DNA of 39,697 bases from a virus. The stretch lies in the IMG/VR virus record IMGVR_UViG_3300033147_000236, positions 1 through 39,697 of that record. The stretch is one strand, 5' to 3'. The notes beneath the pieces were generated by a model that had not been told where the DNA came from, searched no databases, and saw only the letters and a program-made list of their open reading frames with translations. A program made the translations under genes and the position numbers. Positions 2,251 through 39,268 of the stretch are shown here, piece after piece; position 1 is the first letter of the stretch; every line of letters begins with the position of its first letter.

Positions 2251-4005
2251 TTATGTTACGATAAACAGTCGTTTACGTGGGTCAGTGGAAACTGCAAGAG
2301 GGGCATAAGCAGTGATGGTCAATGGTGCCGATGGTAATTGACTGATGTGTTTTTCGGTCGTAATTACTTGGGGCACGTACCCGGTGACGGTCAACGATGC
2401 TGATGGCAATTGGCTGAAATTACTGGCCGCGCTTATAGCTAATGGCACGTACCCGGTAACGGTTAATGATACTGATGGCAATTGGCTGGTATTCGGATCA
2501 AATGTTACGATAAGCGGCACGTACCCGGTAACGGTCAATGACACCGATGGTAATTGGCTGAAATTATTCTCAGTCGTGATTACTTGGAGCACGTACCCGG
2601 TAACGGTCAATGATGCCGATGGCAGTTCACTGGCGTTGCCTAATCCGCCCTCAGTGGTGGTAATAGTGGGCACATACTTAGTGAAAGTCAACGATACTGA
2701 TGGCAATTGGCTGGTATTCGGATCAAAAATCTCTACCGTTGGTACGTACCCGGTAACGGTTAACGATACTGATGGCAATTGACTAGTATTTGGATCAAAA
2801 ACCTCTACCGTTGGTACGTACCCGGTAACGGCCAATGACGCCGATGGGAGGTTCACAAACTGACTATCGCCCTCCGATGTAATAGCTTGGGGCACGTACC
2901 CGGTAACGGTCAATGATGCCGATGGTAATTCACTAATGTTCTTTTCAGTGGTAACTGCCGTTGGTACGTACCCGGTAACGGCCAACGATGCTGATGGCAG
3001 TTCACTGATATTCTTCTCAGTGGTAATTACCGTTGGTACGTACCCGGTAACGGTCAATGATGCCGATGGCAATTGACTAAAGTTACTGGCCGCTACCACA
3101 ATCTGTGGCACGTATCCGGTCACGGTTAATGACACTGATGGTAATTGACTGAAATTGTTTTCAGTGGTAACTGCCGTTGGTACGTACCCGGTAACGGTCA
3201 ATGATGCCGATGGCAATTGACTAATATTCTTTTCAGTGGTGATTGCTGTTGGAACGTACCCGGTAACGGTCAATGATGCTGATGGTAATTGGCTGAAATT
3301 ACTGGCCGCTACTACTGCTTGGGGCACGTACCCGGTAAAGGTCAATGACACCGATGGTAATTGACTGGTATTCGGGTCAAACGTTACTATGAGCGGCACG
3401 TATCCGGTAACGGTCAATGATGCCGATGGTAATTGACTGATGTTATTAGAGTCAGCTGCAATCGTAATTGTTGGAACTGTATCAAATGGAATATCGGTAA
3501 AGATCGGATCGATCGTTTCCATATTATACCGAAATGTGATTACTGCTCCAGCAGATACCTGCGCTGAATCTGCTGTGAGACAATATTCATATTCAGTAGT
3601 ATCATCAGTCCATGTTTGATTTGTTGGCAACGATGACTCAAGCCCTTCCATCCAAGTTGTTTGATAGTCGATTGCCGCACCAATGCGCGTTAATCGTTGG
3701 GTTGGATCATTGTCCTTGTTAGCAAAGTTCGATGAGGCGGCATATTGAACTGCAGAACTCGCTGTGACATCTGCAAATGATCCGCCATCGATAGCGAACT
3801 GTAAAGTTAAGGCAGCACTAACATTTTCATCAGTGGAGGAAGCTTGATCACTAAAATTGACGCGTAGCCGAAAATTCTCATCAAGTGCTTGACCTGTGAC
3901 AGCGACATCTTCAGCGGCTTTAGCGGTAGCCACACCAAGTCCAGCATCATCGTCATGGAAACGAAAATTCTGCCCTTTCCATACCGGGACGACGGAATGG
4001 GTCAT
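2251..4005 (-). CDS. Repeat-rich structural protein (16 copies of a 24-aa repeat)
   Basis: A 584-aa protein between the two fibre-adaptor genes. Residues 1-189 form a non-repetitive N-terminal domain, beta-rich by appearance, containing WKGQNFRFHDDD near the start. Residues 190-584 are 16 tandem repeats with the core LPSASLTVTGYVP and a variable 8-10-residue linker such as TTEKNI or FDPNT. Most units are exactly 24 residues; units 8 and 11 carry small insertions. The C-terminus ends in KRLFIVT. Similar PSASLxxTGYxP repeats occur in other phage virion proteins. A stalk, decoration or host-adhesion role is likely but not shown. Its start overlaps the stop of the gene at 4002-4343 by 4 bp. Confidence 0.75.
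   Translation of the reverse strand: MTHSVVPVWKGQNFRFHDDDAGLGVATAKAAEDVAVTGQALDENFRLRVNFSDQASSTDENVSAALTLQFAIDGGSFADVTASSAVQYAASSNFANKDNDPTQRLTRIGAAIDYQTTWMEGLESSLPTNQTWTDDTTEYEYCLTADSAQVSAGAVITFRYNMETIDPIFTDIPFDTVPTITIAADSNNISQLPSASLTVTGYVPLIVTFDPNTSQLPSVSLTFTGYVPQAVVAASNFSQLPSASLTVTGYVPTAITTEKNISQLPSASLTVTGYVPTAVTTENNFSQLPSVSLTVTGYVPQIVVAASNFSQLPSASLTVTGYVPTVITTEKNISELPSASLAVTGYVPTAVTTEKNISELPSASLTVTGYVPQAITSEGDSQFVNLPSASLAVTGYVPTVEVFDPNTSQLPSVSLTVTGYVPTVEIFDPNTSQLPSVSLTFTKYVPTITTTEGGLGNASELPSASLTVTGYVLQVITTENNFSQLPSVSLTVTGYVPLIVTFDPNTSQLPSVSLTVTGYVPLAISAASNFSQLPSASLTVTGYVPQVITTEKHISQLPSAPLTITAYAPLAVSTDPRKRLFIVT
2254..3438 (-). repeat. Tandem 72-bp coding repeats
   Basis: Sixteen units, mostly exactly 72 bp, encode the 24-residue repeats of the 584-aa structural protein. 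On the plus strand each unit shows the conserved block CACGTACCCGGTAACGGT with synonymous changes between copies. The reading frame is kept throughout, so copy number could change by recombination without breaking the gene. Short-read assemblies of this segment may collapse or expand units. Confidence 0.92.
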
Positions 4006-34782: not shown

Positions 34783-36978
34783 ATGCTGTTGCCAATAAAT
34801 GAAGTAAAGGTGATCGAATCGATCACCGATTTCAACACACGAATACATCAAGCGGCTAGGTTATATGCAAGTCAGGGAATACCAGTCGTTCCGCTTAGGC
34901 CAAATGAAAAAATATTGCCCAAGAAAGAAACGGGTATCAATTACTTTTCAAATTCAACCAACATATCCACCATGGACAAATGGTTCGGACCCAAGGGCAA
35001 GTACCGGGGCTGGAACATTGGCATAGTTTGTGGCCACGAGATATTTGTAGCGGACCTGGACTTACATGGCCGTGAAAATGGCATCGAGAATTGGGATAAA
35101 TTTGCCAATGGGAGGGAATTAAAATGTCCCGTCCAGCAAACCCCTACCGGGGGGCGGCACTTAGTTATGCGGTGGAGGGAGAATCTTACTAGTAGTTCAG
35201 GAAAGCTGACGAGGGGCGTCGACACCCGGGGCGGTGACGGTAGGCCCCGCTCTCACATCGTAGCATGGCCCTCGGTCACGGAAGACGGGGCGTACAGCTG
35301 GGTGAACGGGGGCGACATACCCGACGCGCCTGAGTGGATCAGTACAGCTATGGGTAGGTCGTGGGCGACGAAGGCCCCGGGCCGAGGAAATGAAGAGGTA
35401 GAAGGTCATGAAGAGTTTCAGCACAGCTTGTCACAGGTCGCCGCAATGTTGGACCATGTTGACCCCAATATACTCTCGTACGAGGAATGGTTGTTTATCG
35501 GACAAGCAATTAATTCACAACACCCCAATGAGGATGGTTTACAGCTTTGGGATGCTTGGAGCGCGCCCGGTGAACGGTATATACAGGGCGAGTGTCATAA
35601 GCGGTGGACCGGATTTAACCCCGCTGGAACCATTCGAATGGGGTCGCTCGTTTATTTTGCTAAGCAGGGCGGTTACAAGCCATCTGCGGACTCTGCACGA
35701 CAGGGCGATTTCAATGAAGTAATTGAAAGGATGAACGAAAGCAACGCCGTACTCTTAATAGGGGGTAAGGTTAGGATCGTTCATAAGGACAAACGGGATA
35801 ATATCCATATTATGGGCACTCAGGACTTTAATACCCTGATGTATAACCGTAAGATAACCATCCCAGCTACCGGGCCAAAGGGTAGCCCCAAAGTAATAAC
35901 AGAGGCCGAAGTTTGGATGGGCCATGAAGATAGGCGCGAATGCGTAATGGGCATGGGATTTTTCCCCGATAAACCATTATGGCACGATGGTTATGTTAAT
36001 ATCTGGCAGGGGTGGGGGGTCAAGTCCGAAGAGGGCAATTGGCAAATGTTTAATGATCACATTCGAGACGTGATTTGCAATAAGGACGAAAAATTACACA
36101 AGTACGTGTTAGATTGGATGGCCGACATGGTTCAAGACCCAATGAACCCCAAAGGCACCGCAATAGTGATGCATGGTAAAGAGGGAACGGGAAAGGGAAC
36201 TTTCTGCCAGTTTATGGGCAAGATTATTGGGCAGAAGCACTACAAGCACGTGACGAATGAACGTCACCTGACAGGCAATTTTAACTACCATCTTATGGAT
36301 GGGTTGTTGATCTTTGCAGACGAGGTAGTTTATGGCGGGTCAAGGAGTACGGCAGGTATACTTAAGAGCATGGTCACTGAAAAGGAATTGGTTTGTGAAC
36401 GTAAGGGAGTGGACTCCTTTATGTACGAGAACCGAGCAAGACTTGTTGTGGCCAGCAATGAGGACTGGTTTATCCCGGCTGGTCCCGAATCTAGACGATG
36501 GCTTGTACTGGAGGTAAACGATACTAAGGCTAACGATAAAAGATACTTTGACCTCATGTATGAGCAGATGAATACAGGCGGATACGAAGCAATGATGTTC
36601 GACCTACAGAGGCAGGTGATATCAAGTAACTTAGGCGTAGCACTAGTCACCAAGGGCCTTGAGGCCCAACGATCGATTTACAAAGCCACTGGCGATTCAG
36701 TCGATATTTGGTTCGATCGGTGCGTGGGATTAAGAAATTTAGGCGTTCTCGATGAAGGCGAGGGGGAATGGCCCGATGATTGTGATAGGCAAAGACTCTT
36801 TGAAGCATACCAAAAATGGCTAAACGAAAACAATGGTATGCGGTCAAAGGGAGTGGCACATTTTTATAGAAAGGTAGAAGGATATGGGTTCGTTAAGCAC
36901 AGACCAGCATCAGAAGGCGGCATCAGAAGGTGGCGCTACAAAATCCCTTATTATGGCCAGTTTACACCCGAAGGTTGA
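34783..36978 (+). CDS. PrimPol-helicase (primase/polymerase with SF3-type ATPase)
   Basis: A 731-aa fusion. The N-terminus is a bifunctional primase-polymerase domain: ARLYASQGIPVVPLRPNEK, then NIGIVCG and catalytic DLD (91-93), then GGRHLVMR. Next is a PriCT_2-like part (YEEWLFIGQAIN, GLQLWDAWS). The C-terminus is a DUF5906/D5-like ATPase: Walker A GKEGTGKGT (465-473), Walker B LLIFADE (508-514) and sensor VVASNE, ending in R-R-W-L-V-L-E. It would prime and unwind at the fork. The start is ATG 34783, with GAAGGG ahead and one base after the polymerase stop; 34768 is less likely. It ends inside purZ (26-bp overlap). Confidence 0.88.
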   Translation: MLLPINEVKVIESITDFNTRIHQAARLYASQGIPVVPLRPNEKILPKKETGINYFSNSTNISTMDKWFGPKGKYRGWNIGIVCGHEIFVADLDLHGRENGIENWDKFANGRELKCPVQQTPTGGRHLVMRWRENLTSSSGKLTRGVDTRGGDGRPRSHIVAWPSVTEDGAYSWVNGGDIPDAPEWISTAMGRSWATKAPGRGNEEVEGHEEFQHSLSQVAAMLDHVDPNILSYEEWLFIGQAINSQHPNEDGLQLWDAWSAPGERYIQGECHKRWTGFNPAGTIRMGSLVYFAKQGGYKPSADSARQGDFNEVIERMNESNAVLLIGGKVRIVHKDKRDNIHIMGTQDFNTLMYNRKITIPATGPKGSPKVITEAEVWMGHEDRRECVMGMGFFPDKPLWHDGYVNIWQGWGVKSEEGNWQMFNDHIRDVICNKDEKLHKYVLDWMADMVQDPMNPKGTAIVMHGKEGTGKGTFCQFMGKIIGQKHYKHVTNERHLTGNFNYHLMDGLLIFADEVVYGGSRSTAGILKSMVTEKELVCERKGVDSFMYENRARLVVASNEDWFIPAGPESRRWLVLEVNDTKANDKRYFDLMYEQMNTGGYEAMMFDLQRQVISSNLGVALVTKGLEAQRSIYKATGDSVDIWFDRCVGLRNLGVLDEGEGEWPDDCDRQRLFEAYQKWLNENNGMRSKGVAHFYRKVEGYGFVKHRPASEGGIRRWRYKIPYYGQFTPEG

Positions 36979-37939
36979 CGTTGTAGTTGATTTACAATTT
37001 GGCAGTACAGGAAAGGGCCTGTTTTGTGGGTATTTAGGCGATACCAAGGATTATGACATGGTGATGTCGGCCAATATGCCGAATGCGGGTCATACCTATA
37101 TTGATAAGTACGGCAATCGTTATATGTTTAAGGTGCTGCCATCGAGTGCTGTGGGTAAGTCAGTCAAGACAGTGATGATTGGCCCCGGGGCTGTGTTCCG
37201 CATAGGCAGGTTAGTCGAAGAAATGGTCTTTTTGCGGAAAGATCAGACGTTGAGAATCCACCCTAATGCGATGGTGCTGTCACCGGACCACCCGGTGCAG
37301 GAGGCCAAGCGGCTTCGGCACATATCAAGCACACTGCAAGGGTCAGCGGCGGCGGTGATCGATAAAATGTGGCGATCTGGTAATGCCCCCATCGCCAAGG
37401 ATGCACTACGAGGCACTAAATTTGAAAAGTATGTTTGCAGCCACGACGAATGGAAAATTCGATTATCGATGGCTGATGCCGTGTTGGCCGAAGGTTCGCA
37501 GGGGTACAGTCTTGGAATAAACACCCAATTCTATCCCTTCACCACCAGTCGGGATTGTACCCCTGCGTCCTTCCTTTCAGCTTGCGGCGTACCTTTAAAA
37601 ATGCTTAATAGGGTCTATGGCACCTGCCGCACCCTGCCCATAAGGGTCGGGGGTCCAAGTGGTGACTACTACCCCGATCAGGATGAGTTATCCTGGGAGG
37701 AATTAGGGTTGCCCGAGGAAAGAACCACCGTGACCAACAAGATACGGCGAATTTTCTCCTACTCCAAGCTACAGATCGAGGAGGCAATTTGGCATTGCAA
37801 CCCCGATGCGGTCTTCGTTAACTTCGCCAATTACATTGACAAAGATTACATGCACAACATCGTTGCCCATATTGACCAGTATAGCAGCGTGCAGTGGGTC
37901 GGGCATGGTCCAACATTCAATGACATAGGAGCGGTATAA
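36953..37939 (+). CDS. purZ: PurZ, aminodeoxyadenylosuccinate synthetase
   Basis: A 328-aa PurA-family enzyme that joins aspartate to dGMP, the first committed step to 2-aminoadenine (Z). The P-loop reads QFGSTGKG: PurA has GDEGKG, and replacement of the catalytic Asp by Ser (Ser18) is the accepted mark of PurZ. His47 in NMPNAGHTYI matches the PurA general acid. The size is smaller than bacterial PurA (about 430). The start is uncertain: ATG 36953 places the VDVVVDLQ strand at the usual distance but has a weak ribosome site. ATG 36884, with AAAGG ahead, would add 23 residues. The stop overlaps mazZ (TAATG). The product needs host PurB and kinases to become dZTP. Confidence 0.93.
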   Translation: MASLHPKVDVVVDLQFGSTGKGLFCGYLGDTKDYDMVMSANMPNAGHTYIDKYGNRYMFKVLPSSAVGKSVKTVMIGPGAVFRIGRLVEEMVFLRKDQTLRIHPNAMVLSPDHPVQEAKRLRHISSTLQGSAAAVIDKMWRSGNAPIAKDALRGTKFEKYVCSHDEWKIRLSMADAVLAEGSQGYSLGINTQFYPFTTSRDCTPASFLSACGVPLKMLNRVYGTCRTLPIRVGGPSGDYYPDQDELSWEELGLPEERTTVTNKIRRIFSYSKLQIEEAIWHCNPDAVFVNFANYIDKDYMHNIVAHIDQYSSVQWVGHGPTFNDIGAV

Positions 37940-38280
37940 TGCACATAGAGGAATTGCAGGGATACATTTATCAATGGGCACAGGGAATAATGCCCAATCG
38001 GGTTCCGGCTGATGCCATTAAGAAGTTATCAATGGAAGAAGTGCCAGAATTATGGAGAGCGTTAAAGGAAAATGGGCATATTGACGAGGGCGAAATAGCC
38101 GATATTTTAATCCTTGCCCTTGATATTTGTGCTATGTCATGCATAGATGCAGGGGAGGCGATCAAAAAGAAAATGGCAATTAACGAGGCCAGAAATTGGA
38201 AATTTGAATATGGGGTATTACAACATGAAGACGAGTCATTAGCAAGGGAACTTGCGGAATTAGAGGCGGATAAAAAATGA
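37939..38280 (+). CDS. mazZ: MazZ, MazG-like dGTP pyrophosphohydrolase
   Basis: A 113-aa single-domain all-helical NTP pyrophosphohydrolase. The MazG metal motif is complete: E-E-V-P-E (Glu33, Glu34, Glu37), then E-I-A-D (Glu52, Asp55). In Z-genome phages MazZ converts dGTP to dGMP, feeding PurZ with its substrate. It is fused in the operon by TAATG to purZ and by an ATGA overlap to datZ. The assignment rests on the motif and this linkage; a general MazG housecleaning activity is the alternative. Confidence 0.88.
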   Translation: MHIEELQGYIYQWAQGIMPNRVPADAIKKLSMEEVPELWRALKENGHIDEGEIADILILALDICAMSCIDAGEAIKKKMAINEARNWKFEYGVLQHEDESLARELAELEADKK

Positions 38281-38777
38281 AGATCAATGATATTTTACGC
38301 GCATCCGGCGTTACCCGATGGCACATTGTTAGGATGGTTAGACCACAATCCCTGGCAGAACACACATTCGATGTGGTAATGATTGCCCGGGCGATCGCCA
38401 GCATTGCAGCGGTAGACGATTATGAAATCATTAAAGCAGCCCTATTGCACGACCTCGACGAGATCATTACGGGAGACATACCAACTCCTACTAAAGCTCG
38501 GGCTAGGGAGAACGGCTGGGAACTTAATGAACTCTACAAGTCTATCACCGGGCGAGAAATTACACCAGATGAGGCGCTTATTGTCCAATTGGCGGACAAA
38601 TTGGCCGATCTCTATTGGCTGTGGACTCATGCCTTGGGGCCTCATTCAAACGCAGTATACGAAAAGATGGCCGAGACGTACAATGAATTTGTGCGCTCTG
38701 AATCCATACCAGACAACATTCGCGAGGCTGCGTTGGATGTACAGATGCAAATGCTCTCAGAGGACTTTTTAATATGA
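38277..38777 (+). CDS. datZ: DatZ, HD-domain dATP triphosphohydrolase
   Basis: A 166-aa YfbR-like HD phosphohydrolase. The metal ligands are His29 in QSLAEHTF, His58-Asp59 in LLHDLDE and Asp107 in QLADKLADL. The RW pair (14-15) before QSLAEH fits known DatZ enzymes. DatZ removes dATP so the phage polymerase inserts Z and not A. It overlaps mazZ and the nuclease gene by 4 bp each. A general 5'-nucleotidase is the alternative, but the purZ-mazZ-datZ order makes that unlikely. Confidence 0.9.
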   Translation: MKINDILRASGVTRWHIVRMVRPQSLAEHTFDVVMIARAIASIAAVDDYEIIKAALLHDLDEIITGDIPTPTKARARENGWELNELYKSITGREITPDEALIVQLADKLADLYWLWTHALGPHSNAVYEKMAETYNEFVRSESIPDNIREAALDVQMQMLSEDFLI

Positions 38778-39268
38778 GCGGCGAGAAGAAGATGTGGAAT
38801 TATCTAGGCCCCAAGCTACGATTTGCTGGGCATTTCGAAAGGATTGAATCCCATGAAACGGCGATCGGTACCCCGGATGTTGGCTATTGCATCCGGGGCT
38901 ACAACAATCACATGGAGCTTAAATACACCGAGAAAGAGAATGGGTGTATATTAAGGCCCAGCCAGTGTGCGTGGTTCAAGAAGCGGGTCAAAGCCAAGGG
39001 CCAGCCGTGGCTACTACTACAAATGAAAATCAGGGACACAAGGGGCTGGGCACTTATCCCGGGCTGCGATGTCCCGCCCTTGGTACACACCAAAAATGTC
39101 ATTGAATGGATGCAAGCAGGAGTAGTGGTATGGAAGAATCAAATAGTAATCGAGGAACTGATCCATTACTTGAGTTCGTACTTAGTAGTGGAGGAAGAAC
39201 GGCCAAGTGGGACGTCGGGAAAAGAATCCTCTGGATTGATATTGCCGTCTCACATAAGGAGGAATTAG
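38774..39268 (+). CDS. PD-(D/E)XK nuclease, VRR-NUC-like
   Basis: A 164-aa protein. The nuclease core is GTPD (32-35) followed by ELK (48-50), with Gln64 in RPSQ after the last strand, the standard VRR-NUC/Holliday-resolvase pattern. Such enzymes resolve branched DNA before packaging or degrade host DNA; a nuclease acting only on A-containing DNA would be helped by a Z genome, but that is speculation. The last 45 codons lie inside a different gene on the same strand (39130-39465) and look less constrained, so the true fold probably ends near residue 130. Confidence 0.78.
   Translation: MSGEKKMWNYLGPKLRFAGHFERIESHETAIGTPDVGYCIRGYNNHMELKYTEKENGCILRPSQCAWFKKRVKAKGQPWLLLQMKIRDTRGWALIPGCDVPPLVHTKNVIEWMQAGVVVWKNQIVIEELIHYLSSYLVVEEERPSGTSGKESSGLILPSHIRRN

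Follow-up and report, generated by a model that had tools for sequence, protein, structure and literature searches.

The window, the whole contig of 39,697 bases analysed here, contains a complete Z-DNA gene set comprising DpoZ, a primase, PurZ, MazZ and DatZ (Table 1). The order of the genes is that of phiVC8 and Alteromonas phage ZP6, and the 3' end of the primase gene overlaps the start of purZ. The MazZ protein retains the S-2L metal ligands E34, E37, E52 and D55 as well as the guanine contacts I58 and D62, and the HD residues are retained in DatZ. The MazZ of the window (37939-38280) is of the S-2L-like MazZ-1 type and sits amid a PurZ, a DpoZ and a gene order that resemble phiVC8, which suggests that mazZ has been exchanged between Z-phages.

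Table 1 Features of the Z-gene cassette and of the purZ active site (positions in the window).
Feature	Position	Strand	Basis
dpoZ, aminoadenine-incorporating DNA polymerase, 612 aa	32943-34781	+	NCBIfam NF038380, 700.3 bits (cut-off 500)
Primase-polymerase/helicase, 736 aa	34768-36978	+	PF09250, PF08707, PF19263; PHROG 1156 DNA primase
purZ, succino-2-amino-deoxyadenylate synthetase, 328 aa	36953-37939	+	NCBIfam NF038379, phmmer, AF2 model
GSTGKG glycine-rich loop, Ser18 in place of PurA Asp13	37001-37018	+	Alignment
NAGHT motif, His47 aligned with PurA His41	37082-37096	+	Alignment
TTVT loop, Thr258-Thr261	37724-37735	+	Alignment; Asp-substrate contact in PurZ
N290 F291 A292 N293 Y294, (d)ATP-side adenine recognition	37820-37834	+	As in phiVC8 PurZ; PMC8342488
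mazZ, MazZ-1/DUF550 type, 113 aa	37939-38280	+	39% identity to S-2L MazZ
datZ, HD-domain dATP triphosphohydrolase, 166 aa	38277-38777	+	PHROG 7076, E 2.4e-32; YfbR-like, E 1.3e-17
Small nuclease-like ORF 3' of datZ	38774-39268	+	phrog_2165, E 1.1e-20; position of the ZP6 nuclease gene

Identical stretches of 114 bases at the two ends of the contig (1-114 and 39584-39697) make it probable that the phage genome is complete, with either terminal redundancy or circular assembly behind the repeat. The structural genes are located on the opposite strand and include a head-tail connector, a major head protein, tail proteins and the terminase small subunit. Adjoining the tail genes, positions 2254-4005 (minus strand) encode a protein of 584 aa in which a 24-residue unit of the form SQLPSASLTVTGYVP recurs many times; the protein has no match in PHROGs and only a sub-threshold match in Pfam. 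No near-identical DNA was found when half of the window was compared to phage records by megablast.

Read from the ATG at 36953, the purZ product starts with MASLHPKVDVVVDLQFGSTGKGLFCGYLGDTKDYDMVMSANMPNAGHTYI... and agrees with the N-termini of its relatives. The start codon is uncertain: an alternative ATG at 36884 has a better upstream AAAGG and would give a protein of 351 aa, with the 23 extra residues encoded within the primase overlap. The 328-aa protein passes the NCBIfam PurZ model NF038379 narrowly (303.7 bits, cut-off 300). Among solved structures, the closest in sequence is that of phiVC8 PurZ (6FM1), a full-length phmmer match (E 5.5e-101) with 50% identity. An AF2 model computed from the window sequence together with 29 related loci has a mean pLDDT of 92.4, and its best structural match is phiVC8 PurZ bound to dGMP, Asp and AMPPCP (6TNH; Z 50.0, 1.2 Å, 326 residues). 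S-2L PurZ with dGMP and dATP (7ODX, Z 44.6), Pyrococcus horikoshii PurA (5K7X, Z 38.4), PurZ0 (7VF6, Z 37.4) and E. coli PurA (1CG4, Z 34.7) follow. In the tree, the protein is placed inside phage PurZ, grouped with phiVC8 and ZP6 and away from PurA (support 100/99). The sequence K300 carries a wrong PurZ0 tag in this tree, which does not affect the topology.

An ordinary metabolic PurA, making adenylosuccinate from IMP, would have the same predicted fold and the same Pfam family, PF00709, which the window protein matches with 90.2 bits. However, the protein falls far under every PurA equivalog cut-off in NCBIfam (117.4 vs 368 and 89.7 vs 395.6 bits), carries Ser18 where PurA has Asp13, branches with phage PurZ and has DpoZ, MazZ and DatZ as its gene company, and we consider this assignment very improbable. 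The identification of the enzyme in the earlier note, a PurZ making the precursor of Z, is well supported by the family model, the structure comparison, the tree and the gene neighbours, with the catalytic step itself being expected by analogy to relatives that have been solved or assayed.

The glycine-rich loop and the catalytic histidine were placed in a 14-sequence alignment, in which the window protein is compared with E. coli PurA, nine PurZ of phages and three PurZ0. There, Ser18 occupies the column of the catalytic E. coli residue Asp13, and His47 that of His41. Asp13 of PurA is the base acting on IMP. The loop, in the context FGSTGKG, is encoded by GGC (G17), AGT (S18, 37004-37006) and ACA (T19), followed by G20, K21 and G22, and His47 is CAT at 37091-37093. 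The alignment with PurZ, PurA and PurZ0 thus confirms that GDEGKG has become GSTGKG with the NAGHT histidine kept, as had been noticed from the sequence. The change is not limited to the aspartate, since Asp and Glu are both replaced (GDE to GST). Both motifs had been assigned to 36953-37060; the loop is inside this interval, while His47 and NAGHT are just beyond it. A chance origin of GSTGKG is excluded because the motif occupies the homologous position of a full-length PurZ match.

The remaining substrate contacts were taken from the S-2L PurZ crystal structure (PMC8342488) and mapped by alignment. The residues contacting dGMP and (d)ATP are mostly kept: S18, N44, A45, H47, T48, T127, R141, Q183, R231 and V232, as well as T258-T261, R265, N290, F291 and N293. 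Differences from S-2L in the dGMP pocket are S125 for G130, F196 for Y203 and T197 for C204; F16 is found at S-2L Y21, and N293 at S-2L Q308, with Asn as in phiVC8. The TTVT loop corresponds to T273-T276 of S-2L PurZ (PMC8342488), and E. coli PurA has G-A-T-T at the same alignment positions. On the (d)ATP side, the N, F and N/Q of the phiVC8 and S-2L structures are present as N290, F291 and N293.

These features also bear on whether the enzyme could be a PurZ0, the kind known from actinobacterial phages. Serine is present there too, in the GSEAKG of the three PurZ0 sequences examined, but the window loop is GSTGKG, the ATP-side residues N290, F291, N293 and Y294 are of the PurZ type, the neighbours are DatZ and MazZ and not DutZ/DmtZ, and the tree places the protein within phage PurZ. 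A PurZ0 is the least probable of all the assignments we weighed, and hardly credible. We conclude, with a probability of about 0.95, that the window enzyme belongs, as an ordinary phage PurZ, to the phiVC8/ZP6-related clade and converts dGMP to dSMP, with Ser18 as one of several changes.

In characterised relatives, PurZ joins dGMP and Asp with the use of (d)ATP to give dSMP; host enzymes then lead to dZTP, while MazZ feeds dGMP, DatZ removes dATP and DpoZ prefers dZTP (PMC8342488, PMC12884076, PMC8599892). By analogy, the window PurZ would use L-aspartate and dGMP, with ATP or dATP, to form N6-succino-2-amino-dAMP (dSMP), which host enzymes would carry onward to dZTP. The window MazZ would supply PurZ with dGMP from dGTP, DatZ would remove dATP and DpoZ would be expected to build Z into the phage DNA.

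It had been proposed that PurZ owes its acceptance of dGMP to the replacement of Asp by Ser. In its strongest form, the proposal is that this single change turns IMP use into dGMP use and alone marks a Z-maker. In the crystal of S-2L PurZ the serine is indeed next to the 2-amino group, but its hydroxyl is 3.7 Å from N2, a distance judged too great for the hydrogen bond that had been postulated, and 15 residues are listed as unique to PurZ (PMC8342488). The literature searched, with the Science 2021 PurZ papers outside the search, yielded no mutational test of the PurZ serine. For these three reasons we regard the serine as one contributor: a role in dGMP acceptance is plausible, while the distance and the 15 PurZ-specific residues speak against a sole cause. 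Most likely, Ser18 is one of several PurZ-specific changes that let the pocket tolerate the 2-amino group, and not a lone switch.

The invariance of the serine in phages is a further point in favor of the single-switch proposal. We scanned viral sequences with a query restricted to the C-terminal part of the protein (alignment A5), and the loci were thus selected independently of Ser. Among the 80 loci obtained, 69 have DatZ nearby and 64 have DpoZ, and Ser occupies the Asp13 position in all 77 readable motifs. This agrees with published analyses, in which Ser is found in 147/147 (100%) phage PurZ/PurZ0 (PMC12884076) and in every PurZ modelled (PMC8515928). A single-sequence scan of the viral contigs gave zero matches, its patterns being too strict. 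Thr follows the serine in 165/166 readable phage PurZ rows, with some contigs recovered twice. The only variant of the form GSCGKG, with Cys for Thr, is a PurZ found beside DatZ and DpoZ in CALMGO010000442.1 (L175).

The serine is, however, not confined to phages. In a scan of prokaryote genomes, 72 of the 75 readable chromosomal homologs from bacteria and archaea carry Ser, mostly as GSEGKG, and three carry Gly; since one of the two patterns of the alignment used (A1) requires Ser, this share is biased upward and we rely only on the existence of the paralogs and on their gene company. Three loci (L174, L175 and L177) contain the Z-gene set and look phage-derived, and were set apart. No convincing DatZ, MazZ or DpoZ was found near the cellular homologs; the only matches were three very weak profile matches of 19-23 bits. 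A separate, full-length canonical PurA is present in 8/8 tested genomes that carry Ser-type paralogs, and most of these paralogs are apart from phage PurZ in the tree. Because Ser-type cellular paralogs exist without Z-gene neighbours, the serine is common to a wider branch. It is therefore shared by all phage PurZ yet not specific to them, which contradicts the view in the earlier note that no other single feature of the sequence points so strongly to an enzyme making Z and not AMP.

What sets phage PurZ apart from PurZ0 and the cellular paralogs is the neighbouring change from Glu to Thr: Glu follows the serine in 72/75 cellular homologs, as opposed to Thr in phage PurZ. The ATP-side pattern N-F-x-N/Q-Y likewise separates the phage enzymes from the cellular homologs. 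The GST double change, the ATP-side NF-N-Y and the neighbouring genes together are a better mark of phage PurZ. Taken with the crystal distance and the 15 PurZ-specific residues, the cellular homologs make it quite unlikely that the serine alone switches the substrate.

It is also conceivable, although we find it rather doubtful, that Ser is an old trait of a wider PurA branch, of which PurZ is an offshoot, and that the cellular GSEGKG paralogs produce a modified nucleotide, be it a 2-amino-purine or some other. The paralogs at issue adjoin dCTP-deaminase-like or DUF7002 genes. In four loci (L189, L201, L194 and L226), GSEGKG paralogs of about 330-350 aa are encoded directly 5' of a dCTP-deaminase-like gene (PF22769; the match is sub-threshold in two of the loci); this pair is seen in Thalassolituus (L189), Agrobacterium, Sphingomonas and a halobacterial archaeon. 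Longer proteins of 530-600 aa (L217:3455-5065, L225:3251-5047, L240:3455-5056) carry, N-terminal to a Ser-type PurA-like domain, an additional domain of roughly 180-250 aa, with a weak adenylate-kinase-like match in L217. In the Pseudomonas (L217) and Sorangium (L225) loci, the long fused gene is followed by a DUF7002 gene. In Pelobacter and relatives (L207, L233 and L237), the Asp13 position is Gly (GGEGKG).

The replacement of Asp by Ser is already published as an invariant hallmark of the PurZ family, and the site is therefore real but ordinary. The gain is one well-supported Z-DNA phage genome, probably complete and with no near-identical DNA among the phage records compared, and the correction of a rule of thumb: Ser for Asp is insufficient to call a PurZ, and annotation should therefore rely on GST, the ATP-side motif and the neighbours.

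Among known systems, phiVC8 PurZ is alike over its full length, sharing half of its residues and the GSTGKG, NAGHT, TTVT and NF-N-Y motifs, and the order DpoZ-primase-PurZ-MazZ position-DatZ is the same; the protein at the MazZ position of phiVC8 is, in contrast, MazZ-2-like (21% identity). Alteromonas phage ZP6 has a PurZ of 47-48% identity and the same gene order, including the nuclease gene downstream, but another type of MazZ (26% identity). The cyanophage S-2L (7ODX) shares the serine at the same place in a PurZ of 37% identity and a MazZ-1 type partner (39%), and differs in that it has PrimPol but lacks DpoZ, carries Q308 at the position of N293 and has a longer C-terminus. E. coli PurA shares the fold, His41 and the frame of the glycine-rich loop at 22% identity, while Asp13, the GTP-side residues and the larger size distinguish it. 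Among the metagenomic relatives in IMG/VR, the phage IMGVR_UViG_3300010412_000033 (L017) has a PurZ of 73% identity and the same cassette, with a MazZ of the MazZ-1 type.
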